Source: Fidelibacterota bacterium (GTDB lineage Bacteria > Fidelibacterota > Marinisomatia > SCGC-AAA003-L08 > TS1B11). From it: a stretch of 32,741 nt of DNA. Position 1 is the first letter of the stretch; every line of letters starts with the position of its first letter. The translations under genes and the position numbers were made by a program. Below are positions 1 to 25,015 of this stretch, in pieces. The notes under the pieces are model-generated. The model searched no databases and was not told the DNA's origin. It saw only the letters and a program-made list of their open reading frames with translations. The stretch is taken from assembly GCA_030640955.1 (NCBI GenBank), contig DAOWIJ010000065.1:1-32741 (forward strand), given 5' to 3'.

Positions 1-438
1 ATGCGTACCACCGGTGGTGTCAATGCGGTGGCCGAAATCCTGAATAATGCCAGCCGCTCGGCGGAAAAGGGTATTTTGGATCATCTCCGCGAACGGGACC
101 CCGAACTGGCCCTGGAAGTTACCAATCTGATGTTCCTGTTCGAGGATATAGCCAATATGGCTGACGACAACATTCAGAAGATCGTCAAAGAGGTCGATTC
201 CAAGACTTTGGCGCTGGCCATGAAAGCCACCAGCGATGAACTGAAAGACAAGATCTACTCCAACATGTCCGATCGTGCCGCCGGCATGCTCAAGGATGAG
301 TTGGAATACCTGGGTCCTGTCAGGGTACGTGAAGTGGATGAGGCCCAGGCCGGTATCCTGGAAATCGTCAGGCGCTTGGATGAGGCCGGTGAGATAACCA
401 TCTCCAGAGGCGAAGCGGCTGAAGAGATTATTGAATAA
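1..438 (+). CDS. fliG: Flagellar motor switch protein FliG, C-terminal part (5' end outside window)
   Basis: Rotor protein of the cytoplasmic C-ring that receives torque from MotA/MotB. The reading frame is open from base 1, so the gene begins upstream; the 145 residues seen match the C-terminal portion of a protein usually about 330-340 residues long. Visible features are the GGVNAVAEIL linker, the LMFLFEDI helix, and the torque-helix charges known from E. coli FliG: K75 (in AMK), R92 (in SDRAAG), D99 and E100 (in KDE), and R108 (in GPVRVR), in window-local numbering. The family usually has Asp-Asp at the D99/E100 pair, so this is a conservative change. The leading ATG is an internal Met codon, not the real start. 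The stop codon overlaps the fliH start by one base. Confidence 0.96.
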   Translation: MRTTGGVNAVAEILNNASRSAEKGILDHLRERDPELALEVTNLMFLFEDIANMADDNIQKIVKEVDSKTLALAMKATSDELKDKIYSNMSDRAAGMLKDELEYLGPVRVREVDEAQAGILEIVRRLDEAGEITISRGEAAEEIIE

Positions 439-11523: not shown

Positions 11524-12522
11524 GTGGCCAAGATACTCAGTCAGGATGAAATTGATGCTCTACTTTCGACTGTCTCGGAGGAGTCCAGCGAGCTAGAGTC
11601 TATCGAAGGCGGGGGGCCAGCTAAAAGAATAGTCCTCTATGACTTCAAGCATCCGAACCTTATTTCCAAGGAACAGATGCGCATGCTGGAGAATATCCAT
11701 GAGAATTTCGCCCGAAACTTTGGCGTTTTTCTTTCAGCTCAGCTACGCATGATAGTGGAAATCGAATTGCTGGCAATCGATCAGCTCCTGTATTCAGAGT
11801 TTGTGATGTCCATTGCGCCTCCTGGTTGCTTGTATGTACTCACCATGGAAAATCCGGAAGGCCAGACAATCCTGGAGCTGGCGCCGGGGCTGGTTATCTT
11901 CATAGTGGAAAAATTGTTTGGTGGCAAAGGCATCTTCACAGCCGCCACGTCCAGACCGATCTCTGCTATCGAACAGCGCATAATGCGCAAAGTAATTGAC
12001 CGGGCTGCCAGCGAAGTCGCCAATGTCTGGAGTCCCGTCACCCAGTTAAGAGCCACCATTACCAGATTCGAGAGCAATCCGGAGTTCGTTCAAATCATTC
12101 CCTCAGCGGAGCCGGTGGTGGTTATATCGCTGCAGGTGAAGATCCATGACAACAAGACTCTGATGAATTTCTGTTATCCGTACCGCTGGCTTGCAGAGAT
12201 GGTGGGCCATCCGGAGATTCAGGAAAAACTGCAATTTGGCGTAGGGGAAGCAACTAAAGAAGAGCGAGCTATCGTGGGCAAACAGATTAAAAAAATGGCG
12301 TCTGAAGTACGGGCAACGGTAGGAGAGACATCGATCTCGATACAGGATTTTATAAGTCTCCAGGTAGGGGATCTGCTACTGCTGGATTCCAAACCCAACG
12401 AGGAGAATACGATTTTTGTGAGGGAGAAGCCAACATTCAAAGGTTTGATCGGGCGGCAGGAGAAGTATCGAGCCGTTCTGATAACCGATGTGATTCAAGA
12501 GGAACATACCAATGAAGTATGA
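11524..12522 (+). CDS. fliM: Flagellar motor switch protein FliM
   Basis: 332 residues, usual length; GTG start with AAGGAG-type site just upstream (11512-11517). Middle C-ring protein that binds phosphorylated CheY and transmits the switch to FliG. The N-terminal CheY-binding peptide LSQDEIDALL (residues 5-14) is intact, so the motor should respond to CheY although no che genes are in the window. The middle domain has VEKLFGGKGIF, with the GGxG motif that contacts FliG, and the C-terminal SpoA-type domain has GVGEATKEERA-to-LQVGDLLLLD features. The last 11 bases overlap the next gene. Confidence 0.97.
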   Translation: MAKILSQDEIDALLSTVSEESSELESIEGGGPAKRIVLYDFKHPNLISKEQMRMLENIHENFARNFGVFLSAQLRMIVEIELLAIDQLLYSEFVMSIAPPGCLYVLTMENPEGQTILELAPGLVIFIVEKLFGGKGIFTAATSRPISAIEQRIMRKVIDRAASEVANVWSPVTQLRATITRFESNPEFVQIIPSAEPVVVISLQVKIHDNKTLMNFCYPYRWLAEMVGHPEIQEKLQFGVGEATKEERAIVGKQIKKMASEVRATVGETSISIQDFISLQVGDLLLLDSKPNEENTIFVREKPTFKGLIGRQEKYRAVLITDVIQEEHTNEV

Positions 12523-13672
12523 AGAATTAAACCAGAATTACCAAGCCCTGGCCCAGGAAATGCTCGAAGCACTGGGACAAGCCAGCGGTCAAGCTTTACA
12601 AGGTGAGGTCAAGGTTACGGCCGGAACGCCAGCCGAACTGGGAGCCGACTACGCCCCTGGCCTGGAATATCCGCTGTTGAGCGTGACTGTGAGTACAGCC
12701 GGGAAAGAGCAATACGAGCATATTATACTGGTAGAGCGGTCGCTGGCTGGTCACATCTTCAGCTGGATGGTAGGTGGTGATCCACCGGAGGAAGTTGCTG
12801 AGGAGCACCTTGATGCCGTCAAGGAGACAGCTGGTCAGATCCTTGGGCAGTTGCAAGCCGCCTTCGATGGAGAGGACTCAGCGTTTACCCCGGGCGAAAT
12901 TGCTATTTCTGAGATTGCTGCATCGGACGACCTGACGCTCCCTGGAGCTGGTCTGGTGGCTGAATATCAGTTCACCCGCGGTGATGTCGAGGAACAATAT
13001 AAAGTAACCCATATTATTCCGGGTGAGGCAGCGTCCGAAGATGATCCGGCAGTGGAAACAGAGACTGCCGAGGAAGGCGCGCCAACAGCTGAGGCGGAAG
13101 CAGCGGAGGAGGGTGCTGAAGAACCAGCCGGTGAAGTAGCAGATGCCGGCGATGATGAACTCACCAGTCTCGAGGCCGATGATGCGTTTGGGGCACTTGA
13201 GGCCGAGATGCAGCCCGACGAGGAGGAAGGACTGCAGGAGGAAAGCGCCTTCGACGATATTACAGGTGAAGAGCCTGCAGGTGGGGACATTGATGATATC
13301 TTTGGAGAGGAAATACCCGAAGTAGACGTTGGCATAGAAGAAACTGTGGAAGCCAGCCCGGTACAATTTGATGAGTTCGCCCAGCAGAGTCCCAGCAACG
13401 GCAAGGGCCGCAAAATCGATATGCTCCTGGATGTGGAGCTGGATGTAACCGTTGAGCTAGGACGCAAAGTGATGCTGGTCGAGGATATCCTCAGGCTTGG
13501 CAAAGGCTCCGTTGTGGAACTCAATAAACTGGCCGGCGAACCCGTCGATATCCTGGTAAACGGACGGAAACTCGCTGAAGGCGAAGTGGTAGTGGTTGAG
13601 GATCATTTCGGTGTGCGCCTCACCCACCTTATCGATCCCAAGGATCGCATCCGCAGCCTGGGTAAGGGATGA
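12512..13672 (+). CDS. fliY: Flagellar motor switch protein FliN/FliY type (CheC-like N-domain, acidic linker, SpoA domain)
   Basis: 386 residues, far longer than E. coli FliN (137). Three parts: residues 1 to about 170 resemble the CheC/CheX/FliY fold; residues about 171-292 are a strongly acidic Glu/Asp/Ala linker; residues about 300-386 are a FliN SpoA domain (MLLDVELDVTVELGRK, then GSVVELNKLAGEPVDILVNG). The C-terminal domain forms the base of the C-ring and docks FliH. In CheC-type phosphatases the helix reads D/S-x3-E-x2-N; here it is D101-AVK-E105-TA-G108, so the Asn is missing and CheY-P phosphatase activity is doubtful. It overlaps fliM by 11 bases and fliO by four. Confidence 0.92.
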   Translation: MKYEELNQNYQALAQEMLEALGQASGQALQGEVKVTAGTPAELGADYAPGLEYPLLSVTVSTAGKEQYEHIILVERSLAGHIFSWMVGGDPPEEVAEEHLDAVKETAGQILGQLQAAFDGEDSAFTPGEIAISEIAASDDLTLPGAGLVAEYQFTRGDVEEQYKVTHIIPGEAASEDDPAVETETAEEGAPTAEAEAAEEGAEEPAGEVADAGDDELTSLEADDAFGALEAEMQPDEEEGLQEESAFDDITGEEPAGGDIDDIFGEEIPEVDVGIEETVEASPVQFDEFAQQSPSNGKGRKIDMLLDVELDVTVELGRKVMLVEDILRLGKGSVVELNKLAGEPVDILVNGRKLAEGEVVVVEDHFGVRLTHLIDPKDRIRSLGKG

Positions 13673-21166: not shown

Positions 21167-21406
21167 ATGAATACCGCAATCTACCAGTTGGCCCTGATTA
21201 TCGGTATGGGAACCCTCGCGATTCTCCTGATGCGAGGTATGTCTCTCCTGACTGCTCTTTATCGGAGTGCATTGGTTTTGGGAATCATGCTTGCCATCCT
21301 GGTTGTTTCCGGGATAGTGATCAGCTGGGCTACAACCAGAAGGCCTGAGACGCGTGATATTGACGAGGCCTCCGATGAGGTCGCTGAAGTCGAGGAACCC
21401 AAATGA
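21167..21406 (+). CDS. Small two-helix membrane protein of unknown function
   Basis: 79 residues, not recognised as a named family. Two hydrophobic segments (about residues 4-22 and 30-53) are followed by a short Arg-containing turn and an acidic C-terminal tail (about 58-79, rich in Glu and Asp). It starts one base after flhG and overlaps fliA by four bases (ATGA), so it is translated as part of the operon. Small membrane proteins occur between flhG and fliA in some flagellar clusters, but no function can be given. The tight coupling on both sides argues that it is a real gene. Confidence 0.75.
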   Translation: MNTAIYQLALIIGMGTLAILLMRGMSLLTALYRSALVLGIMLAILVVSGIVISWATTRRPETRDIDEASDEVAEVEEPK

Positions 21407-22176
21407 GTGCTACCACATCCCCCGGAACGATCCACAACGGTGAAACACTGTTGAAGGAGTATTACGCGACCAAGGACCCTGTTTTACGCGAAAAAGCCGT
21501 CAAAGAATTCCTGCCGCTGGTATACTACGTTGTGAACCGTGTGACCCTGCCGGTTACTGATGCCATTACCCGGGAGGACCTGGAGCAGAGCGCCATCCAC
21601 GGTTTGCTGGAAGCCATTGATCGGTTCGATGAGGATCGGAAAGTAAAATTCAAGACCTTTGCCTATAAACGGATCTATGGGGCGGTCATAGATGCGATCC
21701 GGCAGGTGCGCATTGTGAGTCGTACGAAATTGGAGCGGCTGATGAAGGTCCAGAAAATTTCTGAGAATTTGGCACAAAAGCTGCACCGTGATCCTACAGC
21801 GGAAGAAATTTGTGAAGAAGCGAAAATTTCTATGAATGAGTATTCGAATTTATTGGTTGCTGGCCAGTTAAGCTATGCAACTTTTTCCCTTGAAGATCCC
21901 GTATCGTCCGATCAGGAAGAGGCGTCAAGACACGTTGATTTACTGGCGGACACGGCTGCAGAAGATCCGGAGAAAGTGTTTATGATGGAGAACCTGAAGG
22001 TGAGGCTGGTAAATCTACTCAAGGAACTTCCCGAACGGGAGAGACTGATTCTGGCTTTGTATTACTATGAGAATCTCACATTGGTTGAGATCGGGCAGGT
22101 ATTGAACATATCCGAATCTCGCGTATCCCAAATCATGAGCAAATCCCTTGATGCGCTCAGGTCAAAGATCCAATGA
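21403..22176 (+). CDS. fliA: RNA polymerase sigma-28 factor FliA
   Basis: 257 residues, usual length. Sigma factor for late flagellar genes such as flagellin. Region 2 is seen as REDLEQSAIHGLLEAIDRFD followed by VKFKTFAYKRIYGAVIDAIR; region 3 as LHRDPTAEEICEEAKIS; region 4 as LPERERLILALYYYENLT with the helix-turn-helix EIGQVLNISESRVSQIMSKS. It overlaps both neighbours by four bases. No FlgM anti-sigma gene is recognisable in the window. Confidence 0.97.
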   Translation: MSATTSPGTIHNGETLLKEYYATKDPVLREKAVKEFLPLVYYVVNRVTLPVTDAITREDLEQSAIHGLLEAIDRFDEDRKVKFKTFAYKRIYGAVIDAIRQVRIVSRTKLERLMKVQKISENLAQKLHRDPTAEEICEEAKISMNEYSNLLVAGQLSYATFSLEDPVSSDQEEASRHVDLLADTAAEDPEKVFMMENLKVRLVNLLKELPERERLILALYYYENLTLVEIGQVLNISESRVSQIMSKSLDALRSKIQ

Positions 22177-22466
22177 TCGATATTCTCGATCCCAATGTGA
22201 ACCTGCCGCCTGCGCCGGTTCCCACTACGGCCCAGCCGGTGGAACCTGTAGAAGCCGATACGGTGAGTGTGCAGGACAACAGACTTGAGGAAGAAAAAAG
22301 ATTTCAGGAACAGGACCTTGAGGAAAAACGGAAGAGAGCGCAGAAAGATAGCGTAGAACTGTCAGATCAAAAGGATTCTAATGAGGGTGAGAAGGACGAG
22401 GACGAGGAACCTGAAACCGCCGTTGAGGCAGATGATGAACACAAGATCGACATTATCATCAAATAA
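22173..22466 (+). CDS. Hypothetical highly charged 97-residue protein
   Basis: Not recognised. The N-terminal third is Pro/Val/Ala-rich (about residues 8-30); the rest is dominated by Glu, Asp, Lys and Gln, with a likely short helix (about 37-58) and an acidic stretch (about 68-88), ending HKIDIIIK. No membrane segment or signal peptide. The ATG overlaps the fliA stop by four bases, which favours it being translated, but the composition gives no functional clue. The 3' end overlaps the next gene by about 32 bases, more than elsewhere in the cluster. Confidence 0.6.
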   Translation: MIDILDPNVNLPPAPVPTTAQPVEPVEADTVSVQDNRLEEEKRFQEQDLEEKRKRAQKDSVELSDQKDSNEGEKDEDEEPETAVEADDEHKIDIIIK

Positions 22467-23265
22467 ATTCATCTTAACCGCGTTGGTTATGCTGTTTTCC
22501 AGCTTTGCCTGGGCAGCTTCAGAGCGCTATATCGCTTTCTTTTCAGCAGAACAGGAGAATTATCGCCGGTTACTGATTGACGGGGTTGCCAATCGCCGCG
22601 TCAACGTGGAGCTGGATACTCTGGGCCGCGTCGAAGTACTTATCCGGGGTGTTAATGAGCGTGAGTATGTAGGCCTGCGGGATTACGAACGGGGCTATCT
22701 GGTGCCGGTAAATATTAATGTAAGTTTTCCTCAGAAGGACCATATGTCCATTGTTCTGACCGGCAGCCGCTTCAAGGAGATGGTGCGCTATCGGGAGATA
22801 AGTACAGGAATATACATTGTGGATCTTTATGTGCAACATCTTCCGCAGGAGAGCGTCTTTCGTGAGCAGACTATCAGCGCCTTGTGGCCGGGAGATCGAT
22901 TTACCCCAGACATCAGTACTGCCGGGGAACGGCTGCAGCTTGCCTCCTCAACGGATCTAAGCCTGCCGGCATTAATAATTGCTAAACTGACCCCTTACCG
23001 GCATGTCATTTATCGCGCTATGTTCTGGGCCGCCGCGTTGTTTATCATTATAATTGCCGCTGCTGTACCCATATTGCTGATCCAGCGGAATCTGCAGGCA
23101 GCTCGTTTCCAGCCTGTGGATCGGCAAAAGCGTAGCAGATCGCACCAGAACAGGCTGGATGGTTCGGCGAAAGCTCATGATATCATGCGCAAGAATGGCG
23201 GAGTGAGTTTCGAGGAAGCTTCGCTGCTGGCTGACCTGGAAGGAGACGGTCTCAGTCGCGCCTGA
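22435..23265 (+). CDS. Hypothetical exported protein with C-terminal membrane anchor
   Basis: 276 residues from ATG 22435 (ATG 22432 is an equal alternative); GAGG at 22425-22428 and the signal peptide favour this over an upstream ATG at 22381 that would place 18 very basic residues before it. Signal peptide: residues 1 to about 27, ending SSFAWA before ASE. Residues 29-165 look beta-rich (VELDTLGRVEVLIRGV, then MSIVLTGSRF and GIYIVDLYV), perhaps AMIN-like, but this is only an impression. A transmembrane helix spans about 193-216, then a basic cytoplasmic segment and a short helix (VSFEEASLLADLEGDG). The predicted topology places the N-domain in the periplasm. I do not recognise a named family. 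Confidence 0.8.
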   Translation: MNTRSTLSSNKFILTALVMLFSSFAWAASERYIAFFSAEQENYRRLLIDGVANRRVNVELDTLGRVEVLIRGVNEREYVGLRDYERGYLVPVNINVSFPQKDHMSIVLTGSRFKEMVRYREISTGIYIVDLYVQHLPQESVFREQTISALWPGDRFTPDISTAGERLQLASSTDLSLPALIIAKLTPYRHVIYRAMFWAAALFIIIIAAAVPILLIQRNLQAARFQPVDRQKRSRSHQNRLDGSAKAHDIMRKNGGVSFEEASLLADLEGDGLSRA

Positions 23266-23279
23266 TACGGGGCTTGGGA

Positions 23280-24080
23280 ATGATTAGCCTCGAGTTTCTG
23301 CAAAAATTCAGTTCCCTCCTGCAAAAGAGCTTATCCAGAGCGGAAACATACGCCGCAGTCTTCGATATTCTTGATGAAACCATCGAGTATGATTCGGCGA
23401 GCCTCTTCGTCGTATCTCAGCATTCGGATGAACTTGAGGAGGCATTCACTCGTGGCCCGGCAAAAGTGGATCTCGTCTCAGAAGTAGCCTTCAGCCAGGG
23501 TGGGGGGCTGAGCGGCTGGGTGGCAGGCCAGAAATTCCCCTTCATTTTTCCCGAGCTGTCTGACGAGGGCGGCAAACGGGATTTCAAATCCCTGGTTTCA
23601 ATACCCTTATGGATAGAAAGCAAGTTGCTCGGCGTCCTCAATCTGGGCCATAAGGAAGCGGGGCATTTCAAGCCGGACGACCAGCATGGTTTTGAGCAAC
23701 TGGCCCTGGAGCTTGCCATAATTTTAGAGCAACTGGCCCTGCGGACTGAAGTCCAGGAAAAAAATCAGCAACTGGAGGCCTTGCTGAAGGAGCTTCAAGA
23801 GGCCCAGCAGGTGCAGATCGAAAAAGAACGGTTGGCGGCCATCGGTGAGGTGGTTGTAAAAATCAATCATGAGATTAACAATCCCCTGGCCATCATCATC
23901 AGTGTGGCGGATCTGATGGACATCAAGGCCAGTGAGGAGCACCCCGAATTCTGCGAATCCCTGGCTAAAGTAAAGGCCGCCGCCTACCGGATTCGTGACC
24001 TGGCCCGCGCCCTCGAAAATCTGGAATCTTCCCAGGTGGAAGAGTATGTCGGGGGTGTTTCCATGCTTAAAATAGACTGA
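23280..24080 (+). CDS. GAF domain protein with histidine-kinase phosphoacceptor (DHp) domain but no ATPase domain
   Basis: 266 residues from ATG 23280 (an in-frame TTG lies two codons earlier). Residues about 18-148 form a GAF sensor domain (SASLFVVSQHSDELEEAF, GGGLSGWVAGQ, LVSIPLWIESKLLGVLNLGH). A coiled coil (about 150-185, Gln/Glu-rich) leads to a HisKA-type dimerisation domain with the H-box VVVKINHEINNPLAIIISV; H197 is the predicted phosphorylation site. The protein ends about 50 residues after the H-box (EYVGGVSMLKID) with no N, G1 or G2 box, and the following 221 bases contain no such domain in any frame. It may be a phosphotransfer or decoy partner of another kinase. It is the last gene before the sigma-54-like promoter. 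Confidence 0.88.
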   Translation: MISLEFLQKFSSLLQKSLSRAETYAAVFDILDETIEYDSASLFVVSQHSDELEEAFTRGPAKVDLVSEVAFSQGGGLSGWVAGQKFPFIFPELSDEGGKRDFKSLVSIPLWIESKLLGVLNLGHKEAGHFKPDDQHGFEQLALELAIILEQLALRTEVQEKNQQLEALLKELQEAQQVQIEKERLAAIGEVVVKINHEINNPLAIIISVADLMDIKASEEHPEFCESLAKVKAAAYRIRDLARALENLESSQVEEYVGGVSMLKID

Positions 24081-24250: not shown

Positions 24251-24266
24251 TGGCACGGCATTTGAA
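24251..24266 (+). promoter_or_regulatory. Putative sigma-54 promoter upstream of flgF
   Basis: TGGCAC-GGCAT-TTGAA fits the sigma-54 consensus TGGCAC-N5-TTGCA/T, with the -24 box perfect and one mismatch in the -12 box (GA in place of GC). It lies 35 bases before the flgF ATG, in the largest non-coding gap of the window (24081-24301), a sensible distance for a start near 24278. Sigma-54 control of rod, ring and hook genes is known in several phyla. No rpoN or enhancer-binding regulator is in the window. Confidence 0.6.
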
Positions 24267-24301: not shown

Positions 24302-25015
24302 ATGGATTTTAATCTAGGGCGGGTAGCCCGCAATATGACCCGTAATCTGTACGGCACCGACATTCTTGCCAATAACCTGGCGAATGTCGGCACTACCGGC
24401 TTTAAGCGAGATGATGCTTTTACTGACTGGTTCGTTGAAGCGGTCAGGGAAGGCGGCTATAAGAGCTACACCAGCTTTTCTCAAGGCGAATTAATTCGGA
24501 CAGATAATCCCCTGGATTTGGCTATCAGCGGGAATGGCTTTTTTGCCGTAGAAACCCGGACGGGTGTCCATTTCACGCGTAATGGCCATTTTACAGTCGA
24601 TAATGACGGCTTCCTGGAAAACAGTGAAGGCCATCGTCTGCAGGGGGAAAATGGACCAATATCGGTTATCGGGACGACCGGTAATATTGGCGCAGTAGAA
24701 ATTACAAGAACCGGAGAGTTATATGTCGACGGTAACCTGGTGGATCGCCTGGCGATAGCATCAATCCCGGACATTCGGCGGCTGCAGAAAATCGGCACCA
24801 ACCTGTTCAGAGCGCCGGATGATATACTTGTGACCCAACTCGATCCAGATGCAGTCGACATTCGGCAGGGCATTCTGGAAGGATCGAACGTGCAGCCGGT
24901 TTCAGAAATGGTAAGTCTGATCGAGCTGCAGCGCAATTTTGAATCAACACAGCGGGTCGCGCGGGCCATGGATCAAGTTTTAGGACGAGCAACACAGCTC
25001 AGCGATTATCGTTAA
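24302..25015 (+). CDS. flgF: Flagellar distal rod protein FlgF
   Basis: 237 residues. Rod protein of the basal body, exported without cleavage. The N-terminal rod signature ILANNLANVGTTGFKRDDAF, the middle segment LDLAISGNGFFAVETRTG followed by FTRNGHFTVDNDGFL, and the C-terminal SNVQPVSEMVSLIELQRNFE helix are typical of the FlgF/FlgG group. Being shorter and first of the pair, with the start MDFNLGRVARNMTRNLYG, it is FlgF. ATG 24302 has ACGAGG five bases upstream. flgG follows after nine bases. Confidence 0.95.
   Translation: MDFNLGRVARNMTRNLYGTDILANNLANVGTTGFKRDDAFTDWFVEAVREGGYKSYTSFSQGELIRTDNPLDLAISGNGFFAVETRTGVHFTRNGHFTVDNDGFLENSEGHRLQGENGPISVIGTTGNIGAVEITRTGELYVDGNLVDRLAIASIPDIRRLQKIGTNLFRAPDDILVTQLDPDAVDIRQGILEGSNVQPVSEMVSLIELQRNFESTQRVARAMDQVLGRATQLSDYR

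Follow-up and report, generated by a model that had tools for sequence, protein, structure and literature searches.

In the flagellar two-component systems FlrB/FlrC, FleS/FleR, and FlgS/FlgR, a kinase and an NtrC-type regulator are combined with sigma-54 sites in flagellar gene clusters. We know of none with a third component like the one described here, a GAF protein that carries the DHp helices of a histidine kinase without an ATPase domain (GAF-DHp), and in the literature covered, mostly open-access papers, we found neither such a component of a flagellar two-component system nor a description of a flagellar GAF-DHp module. A DHp-like helical pair with a conserved histidine and no ATP hydrolysis is also present in Spo0B and ChpT, which keep a vestigial ATPase-like C-terminal domain. 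In GAF-DHp, the helices are followed not by such a domain but by a tail that is about 16 residues long; it additionally carries a sensory GAF domain.

The roles of single transmitter residues are known from CrdS of Myxococcus, a kinase for an NtrC-type regulator. Here, the glutamate following the histidine (H+1) is needed for kinase but not for phosphatase activity, the asparagine at H+4 is needed for phosphatase activity, which even an exchange to glutamine abolishes, and the histidine itself matters little for the phosphatase; furthermore, the DHp alone of NtrB or EnvZ is enough for phosphatase activity (PMC3510030). NtrB and CrdS resemble GAF-DHp in their HExxNPL H-box, in the phosphatase activity of the NtrB DHp alone, and in targeting sigma-54 activators, whereas the DHp described here occurs by nature on a GAF protein of its own that has no ATPase domain at all. 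RetS of Pseudomonas aeruginosa does not autophosphorylate, possesses a HExxT/N phosphatase motif, and modulates the pathway of another kinase (PMC5992135). However, RetS is a large hybrid with receiver domains and an ATPase domain that is degenerate rather than absent, while GAF-DHp comprises 266 aa with a GAF domain only. In the split kinase CheA3/CheA4 of Rhodobacter sphaeroides, acceptor/phosphatase and ATPase functions reside on different proteins of one system (PMC3591291), although these proteins are of the CheA family. Functionally, the closest precedents for GAF-DHp are RetS and CheA3/CheA4.

The window analyzed here, a stretch of 32,741 nucleotides from a Fidelibacterota genome, begins with the 3' part of fliG (1..438, +) and contains the GAF-DHp gene (23280..24080, +) in a flagellar neighborhood. 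This includes the sigma-28 gene fliA (21403..22176, +; FliA_WhiG, 2.5e-60), the uncharacterized conserved gene orf294 directly upstream of GAF-DHp (22381..23265, +), and flgF (24302..25015, +), with which the rod/ring operon downstream begins. Three genes around fliA, encoding 79, 97, and 294 aa (21167-21406, 22173-22466, and 22381-23265), show no clear Pfam family; their position is kept across the window's family, and they are recognizable in other families. A FliN-type protein encoded at 12512-13672 has a CheX-like segment upstream of FliMN_C (CheX E = 1.3e-5, just under the cut-off), which recalls FliY.

The open reading frame of GAF-DHp starts with ATG, as do the orthologues, and a TTG is found two codons upstream. 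The encoded protein comprises a GAF domain, a coiled coil, a complete HisKA/DHp region with H197, and the short tail before the stop. The GAF domain (residues about 19-151; 23334..23732, +) is matched by Pfam GAF_2 (3.6e-9, residues 19-150), GAF_3 (2e-8), and GAF (1.4e-7). Its exit helix leads as a coiled coil into DHp helix 1 (residues about 132-185; 23673..23834, +), followed by the two-helix DHp/HisKA region (residues about 183-250; 23826..24029, +). AlphaFold2 was applied to the window protein and a Zixibacteria relative only; the weak model (mean pLDDT 59), used for helix boundaries only, places an unbroken helix of low to moderate confidence at residues 132-212 and a second helix at 222-246, as a DHp would predict. 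The H-box NHEINNPL (23865..23888, +) holds H197 (codon 23868-23870), E198, and, at the H+4 phosphatase position, N201, which together form the HE/DxxT/N transmitter-phosphatase motif (H197-E198-x-x-N201). The HisKA match of the window protein (1.5e-5, residues 194-250) reaches 25.3 bits against a Pfam cut-off of 26.9; orthologues of other families exceed the cut-off, e.g., with 1.2e-11. HATPase_c was matched by Pfam neither in the window protein nor at the C-terminus of any orthologue, and in the 221 bases between the GAF-DHp stop and flgF, none of the frames shows a remnant of an ATPase domain (best match to the partner-kinase profile, E = 1). Where the ATPase domain would be, we find a short conserved tail (24039..24077, +) with Y256 and M262, each kept in 33 of 36 orthologues. 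Pfam, downstream DNA, and orthologues thus bear out the preliminary description of a GAF domain, a coiled coil, and a HisKA H-box without a following ATPase domain. Judged by its domains, GAF-DHp falls outside the kinase family, as it possesses the DHp with an acceptor histidine but no HATPase_c domain. Another contig of the same genome (G000:C57; L002:1-1824) encodes a GAF-PAS-HisKA protein of at least 607 aa that apparently ends after the H-box SHEFNQPL, with no ATPase domain and with a short tail, YLKGDSIIDLDE, like that of GAF-DHp; the window's genome may thus have more DHp-only proteins.

An alignment-model search identified GAF-DHp orthologues in 36 of 245 genomes of the phylum, all of constant length and none with a C-terminal ATPase domain. 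Almost the entire model is spanned by 35 of the 37 matches, the other two being contig-end fragments, and each genome has a single orthologue except G008 with two near-identical contig copies. These copies (L062:1067-1867 and L063:11353-12153) lie on different contigs of one draft with 94.5% nucleotide identity, reflecting a strain mixture or a recent duplication. Ten loci from nine genomes of the window's family (f1) hold the gene in the same slot, flhA-flhF-flhG-(TM)-fliA-orf97-orf294-GAF-DHp-flgF-flgG-flgA-flgH-flgI, with 48-56% identity to the window protein, and the slot fliA-...-(kinase)-GAF-DHp-flgF is found again across 16 families. H197, E198, and N201 are conserved in 34, 35, and 34 of 36 orthologues, respectively. 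Two genomes keep the gene without the histidine, which is replaced by lysine in G016, while G063 lacks both H and N. The dN/dS values (0.02-0.22 in the phylum; about 0.21-0.22 inside the window's family) indicate that the genes are under purifying selection. Outside the phylum, a contig scan with a single-protein query, by which the distribution is poorly sampled, revealed one distant relative in Candidatus Zixibacteria; read from translations, its neighbors are a FapA-like gene and two response regulator ORFs of the size of a receiver domain. Homologous loci of the phylum share the truncated architecture, with no full-length kinase homologue at the locus. The truncated form is genuine and conserved phylum-wide, and the existence of the module is well supported.

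The link to flagella drawn in the preliminary description held across the phylum. FlhA is present in all 36 GAF-DHp genomes, and GAF-DHp never occurs without it; FlhA itself exceeds the cut-off in 42 genomes of the same 16 families. Fisher's test for this co-occurrence (3e-37) ignores shared ancestry, and the family-by-family agreement is the sounder statement. A few flagellated genomes lack GAF-DHp. This clearly applies to G002 (single contig, 95% complete), in which the gene is cleanly missing between orf294 and flgF and the sigma-54 site is intact. FlhA without a GAF-DHp match was also found in G009 (70% complete, cluster rearranged after flhF), G202 (57% complete), and G216, where the match is missing for no other reason than that the contig ends within the kinase gene. 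G143 and G144 were dropped as flagellated genomes without the gene, since a 227-aa ORF in the slot is a degenerate GAF-DHp without the H-box, and the adjoining kinase has degenerate ATPase motifs. In these two genomes, flagellar genes are kept despite the co-degenerate pair of kinase and GAF protein. G015 has a cluster head (kinase-NtrC-flgB-flgC-fliE-fliF-fliG; G015:C34, L190) in a genome without an FlhA match; this cluster extends in the direction of the contig end, and FlhA may just be missing from the assembly.

Outside the window's family, a kinase lies directly upstream of GAF-DHp in nearly every locus uncut by a contig end, in most families between the orf294 counterpart and the GAF-DHp gene. 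This partner kinase has a PAS-HisKA-HATPase architecture and about 410 residues in most cases, and 253 residues without PAS in G016. In G194, the GAF-DHp gene has other immediate neighbors but is flanked by genes for kinases and regulators. Elsewhere in the genomes of the window's family, we found generic kinase matches only, none at orthologue level, and by these searches the partner kinase is lost throughout the family. About ten other kinases are encoded in the window genome, any of which could be the partner of GAF-DHp there. The kinase on contig C232 (see below) was rejected as a partner-kinase orthologue because of its identity of about 21% and its different H-box class. The earlier idea of a partner of a separate kinase agrees with the operon kinase found in most other families.

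The partner kinases keep their own histidine (21/21) but carry Q or H at H+4 (21/21), and H+1 is E in only 14 of 21, i.e., the phosphatase residue is lost throughout and the kinase-side glutamate in a third of cases. By the CrdS rule, GAF-DHp appears phosphatase-competent (N201 in 34/36) and the partner kinases do not. Kinase and phosphatase, or kinase and acceptor, are therefore apparently located on two polypeptides. The DHp face from H+5 to H+16 of GAF-DHp shares 53% identity with the kinase adjacent to NtrC in the window's family, compared to 31% with the partner kinases, which suggests that contact with NtrC would be made by GAF-DHp. The conservation of E198 argues that H197 would also be phosphorylated in trans; as this glutamate is dispensable for the CrdS phosphatase and yet kept in 35 of 36 orthologues, a pure phosphatase is probably not the whole story.

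Orthologues of an FlrC/NtrC-type regulator were identified in 33 of the 36 GAF-DHp genomes. Wherever the cluster head could be read, the regulator gene lies just before flgB (G008, G006, G016, G022, G200, G229, and G218) or near it (G230), a position seen in f1, f4, f5, f26, f29, and f30. In the window genome, contig C232 encodes a REC protein, an FlrB-like kinase, and an FlrC/NtrC-type regulator, followed by flgB-flgC-fliE-fliF and the 5' part of fliG; its pair before flgB thereby resembles the known flagellar systems. The fliG end of C232 overlaps the window start imperfectly, and from this overlap and synteny in G008 and G006 we infer that C232 adjoins the window. A complete kinase adjoining an NtrC-type regulator, as in FlrB or FleS, is therefore represented by the C232 pair and not by GAF-DHp itself. 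The NtrC-type regulator and HATPase-bearing kinase for which the preliminary description proposed to search the genome were thus found within the same flagellar cluster. In f1, G016, and G015, a second kinase gene is flanked by the genes of a receiver-domain protein and of the regulator, whereas, f1, f5, and f4/g10 excepted, the families examined have no kinase next to NtrC on its upstream side. The NtrC-adjacent kinase of the window's family carries HEIRTPL, and thus its own phosphatase motif, in all ten readable members, and two receiver-domain proteins (267 and 458 aa) adjoin the kinase-NtrC pair at the cluster head. On C232, a FapA-REC-REC run (L105:6784-10423) lies directly upstream of the FlrB-like kinase and the regulator; it resembles the response regulator/FapA-like run beside the Zixibacteria GAF-DHp (L031).

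A sigma-54-type promoter element, TGGCACGGCATTTGAA (24251..24266, +), is located 51 bases before the flgF ATG and forms the sole conserved island in the otherwise drifting flgF upstream region of the window's family. With a cut-off of a score of at least 21 of 25 within the region tested, a site near the flgF start was detected in 29 of 33 genomes, compared to 0.2 expected from shuffles, which supports the sigma-54-like site after GAF-DHp noted previously. A few sites fall just past the assumed flgF start codon, which in these cases was probably called too far upstream. Canonical TGGCA-N6-TTGC sites are present in other families, at about -39 to -52 of flgF. The -12 element reads TTGA in the window's family versus TTGC elsewhere (GA versus GC), while GG and the spacing of GG-N10-GC are retained. 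On C232, flgB is likewise preceded by a comparable site, TGGCACGACTATTGTC, at a distance of about 50 bases. The window genome also contains rpoN; this gene is present in most non-flagellated relatives as well and is therefore not diagnostic.

Based on these comparisons, we consider it probable (roughly 0.6) that GAF-DHp serves the flagellar kinase-NtrC-sigma-54 circuit as an accessory and kinase-less transmitter subunit. The GAF domain would read a cytoplasmic cue, and the coiled coil would pass its state to a DHp four-helix bundle, either homodimeric or shared with the flagellar kinase and lacking an ATPase domain of its own. By means of N201, GAF-DHp would dephosphorylate the flagellar NtrC-type regulator; additionally or alternatively, H197 would be phosphorylated by a separate kinase and the phosphate exchanged with the regulator. 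The outcome would be a tuned timing of sigma-54 promoter firing, e.g., at the flgF promoter. Our inferences concern the physical contact of the proteins, the activity of GAF-DHp as phosphatase or acceptor, its signal, and NtrC as its target. In its mode of action, GAF-DHp would come closest to an NtrB-type transmitter phosphatase that stands alone, or to one half of a split kinase. The observed losses fit a decay of the old kinase/GAF-DHp pair where NtrC has its own adjacent kinase, as in the window's family and f5: the partner kinase is lost in f1, GAF-DHp is lost in G002, and G016 shows the exchange of His to Lys and the loss of PAS. This coupling is imperfect, as the G218 kinase lacks the G2 box next to an intact GAF-DHp, and the ATPase motifs of the G063 kinase look intact next to a GAF-DHp without H and N, which leaves room for a structural role in mixed dimers.

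A split transmitter is a tentative but serious option. The operon kinase would then provide the ATPase, and GAF-DHp the DHp recognized by NtrC, with H197 phosphorylated in trans and a phosphatase gated by GAF, and kinase and phosphatase would be separately signaled. The residues lost from the operon kinase DHp are in line with such a division, and a linked kinase exists outside the window's family, but this kinase keeps its own histidine in all 21 cases. Rather unlikely is a phosphotransferase relay of the Spo0B/ChpT type, as considered in the preliminary description, in which phosphate would pass from a kinase via a stand-alone receiver protein to H197 and on to the NtrC-type regulator. The conservation of H197 and E198 stands in its favor, and the receiver proteins beside the kinase-NtrC pair could be the intermediate; response regulators also adjoin the Zixibacteria relative. 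However, GAF-DHp lacks the vestigial ATPase domain of Spo0B, HExxN fits a phosphatase or an in-trans acceptor equally well or better, G016 and G063 retain the gene minus its histidine, and a relay is unnecessary in the window's family, where the transmitter of the NtrC-adjacent kinase is normal. A strict Spo0B-like relay consequently has less support than the transmitter-subunit reading.

We regard it as improbable that GAF-DHp is an inhibitory pseudokinase, whose DHp would form mixed dimers with the flagellar kinase and block its autophosphorylation whether or not the catalytic residues of GAF-DHp are intact, in the manner of RocA or of RetS mechanism 3. Such kinase-kinase inhibition is documented for RetS-GacS (PMC5992135), and the operon pairing survives the loss of catalytic residues in one partner (G016, G063, G218, and G143/G144). 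Nevertheless, H, E, and N are conserved in nearly all members, which points to chemistry rather than dimerization alone, and the window's family keeps these residues at all ten loci without the partner kinase. There is only a slight chance that GAF-DHp is a functionless, decaying remnant in the window's family, with the FlrB-like kinase and NtrC as the real circuit. The loss of the partner kinase throughout f1, the absence of GAF-DHp in G002, and the missing match in the incomplete G009 would agree with decay, but a full open frame with HExxN at 10/10 family loci and the dN/dS values there speak against it. Loss of the ATPase domain by frameshift or assembly error has nothing in its favor and is practically negligible, given the same endpoint in 36 genomes and no remnant downstream.

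For separating the kinase, acceptor, and phosphatase roles, the phylum offers natural variants: f1 (kinase lost), G016 and G063 (His lost), G143/G144 (H-box deleted), and G002 (gene lost). Descriptions of flagellar two-component systems mostly involve a single bifunctional kinase and a single regulator. If the transmitter-subunit reading is true, a phylum-wide, single-copy, ATPase-less DHp partner with a GAF domain would mean that a flagellar sigma-54 checkpoint combines two cytoplasmic inputs received by two different proteins; according to split-kinase theory, such a separation can yield switch-like or bistable output (PMC3591291).
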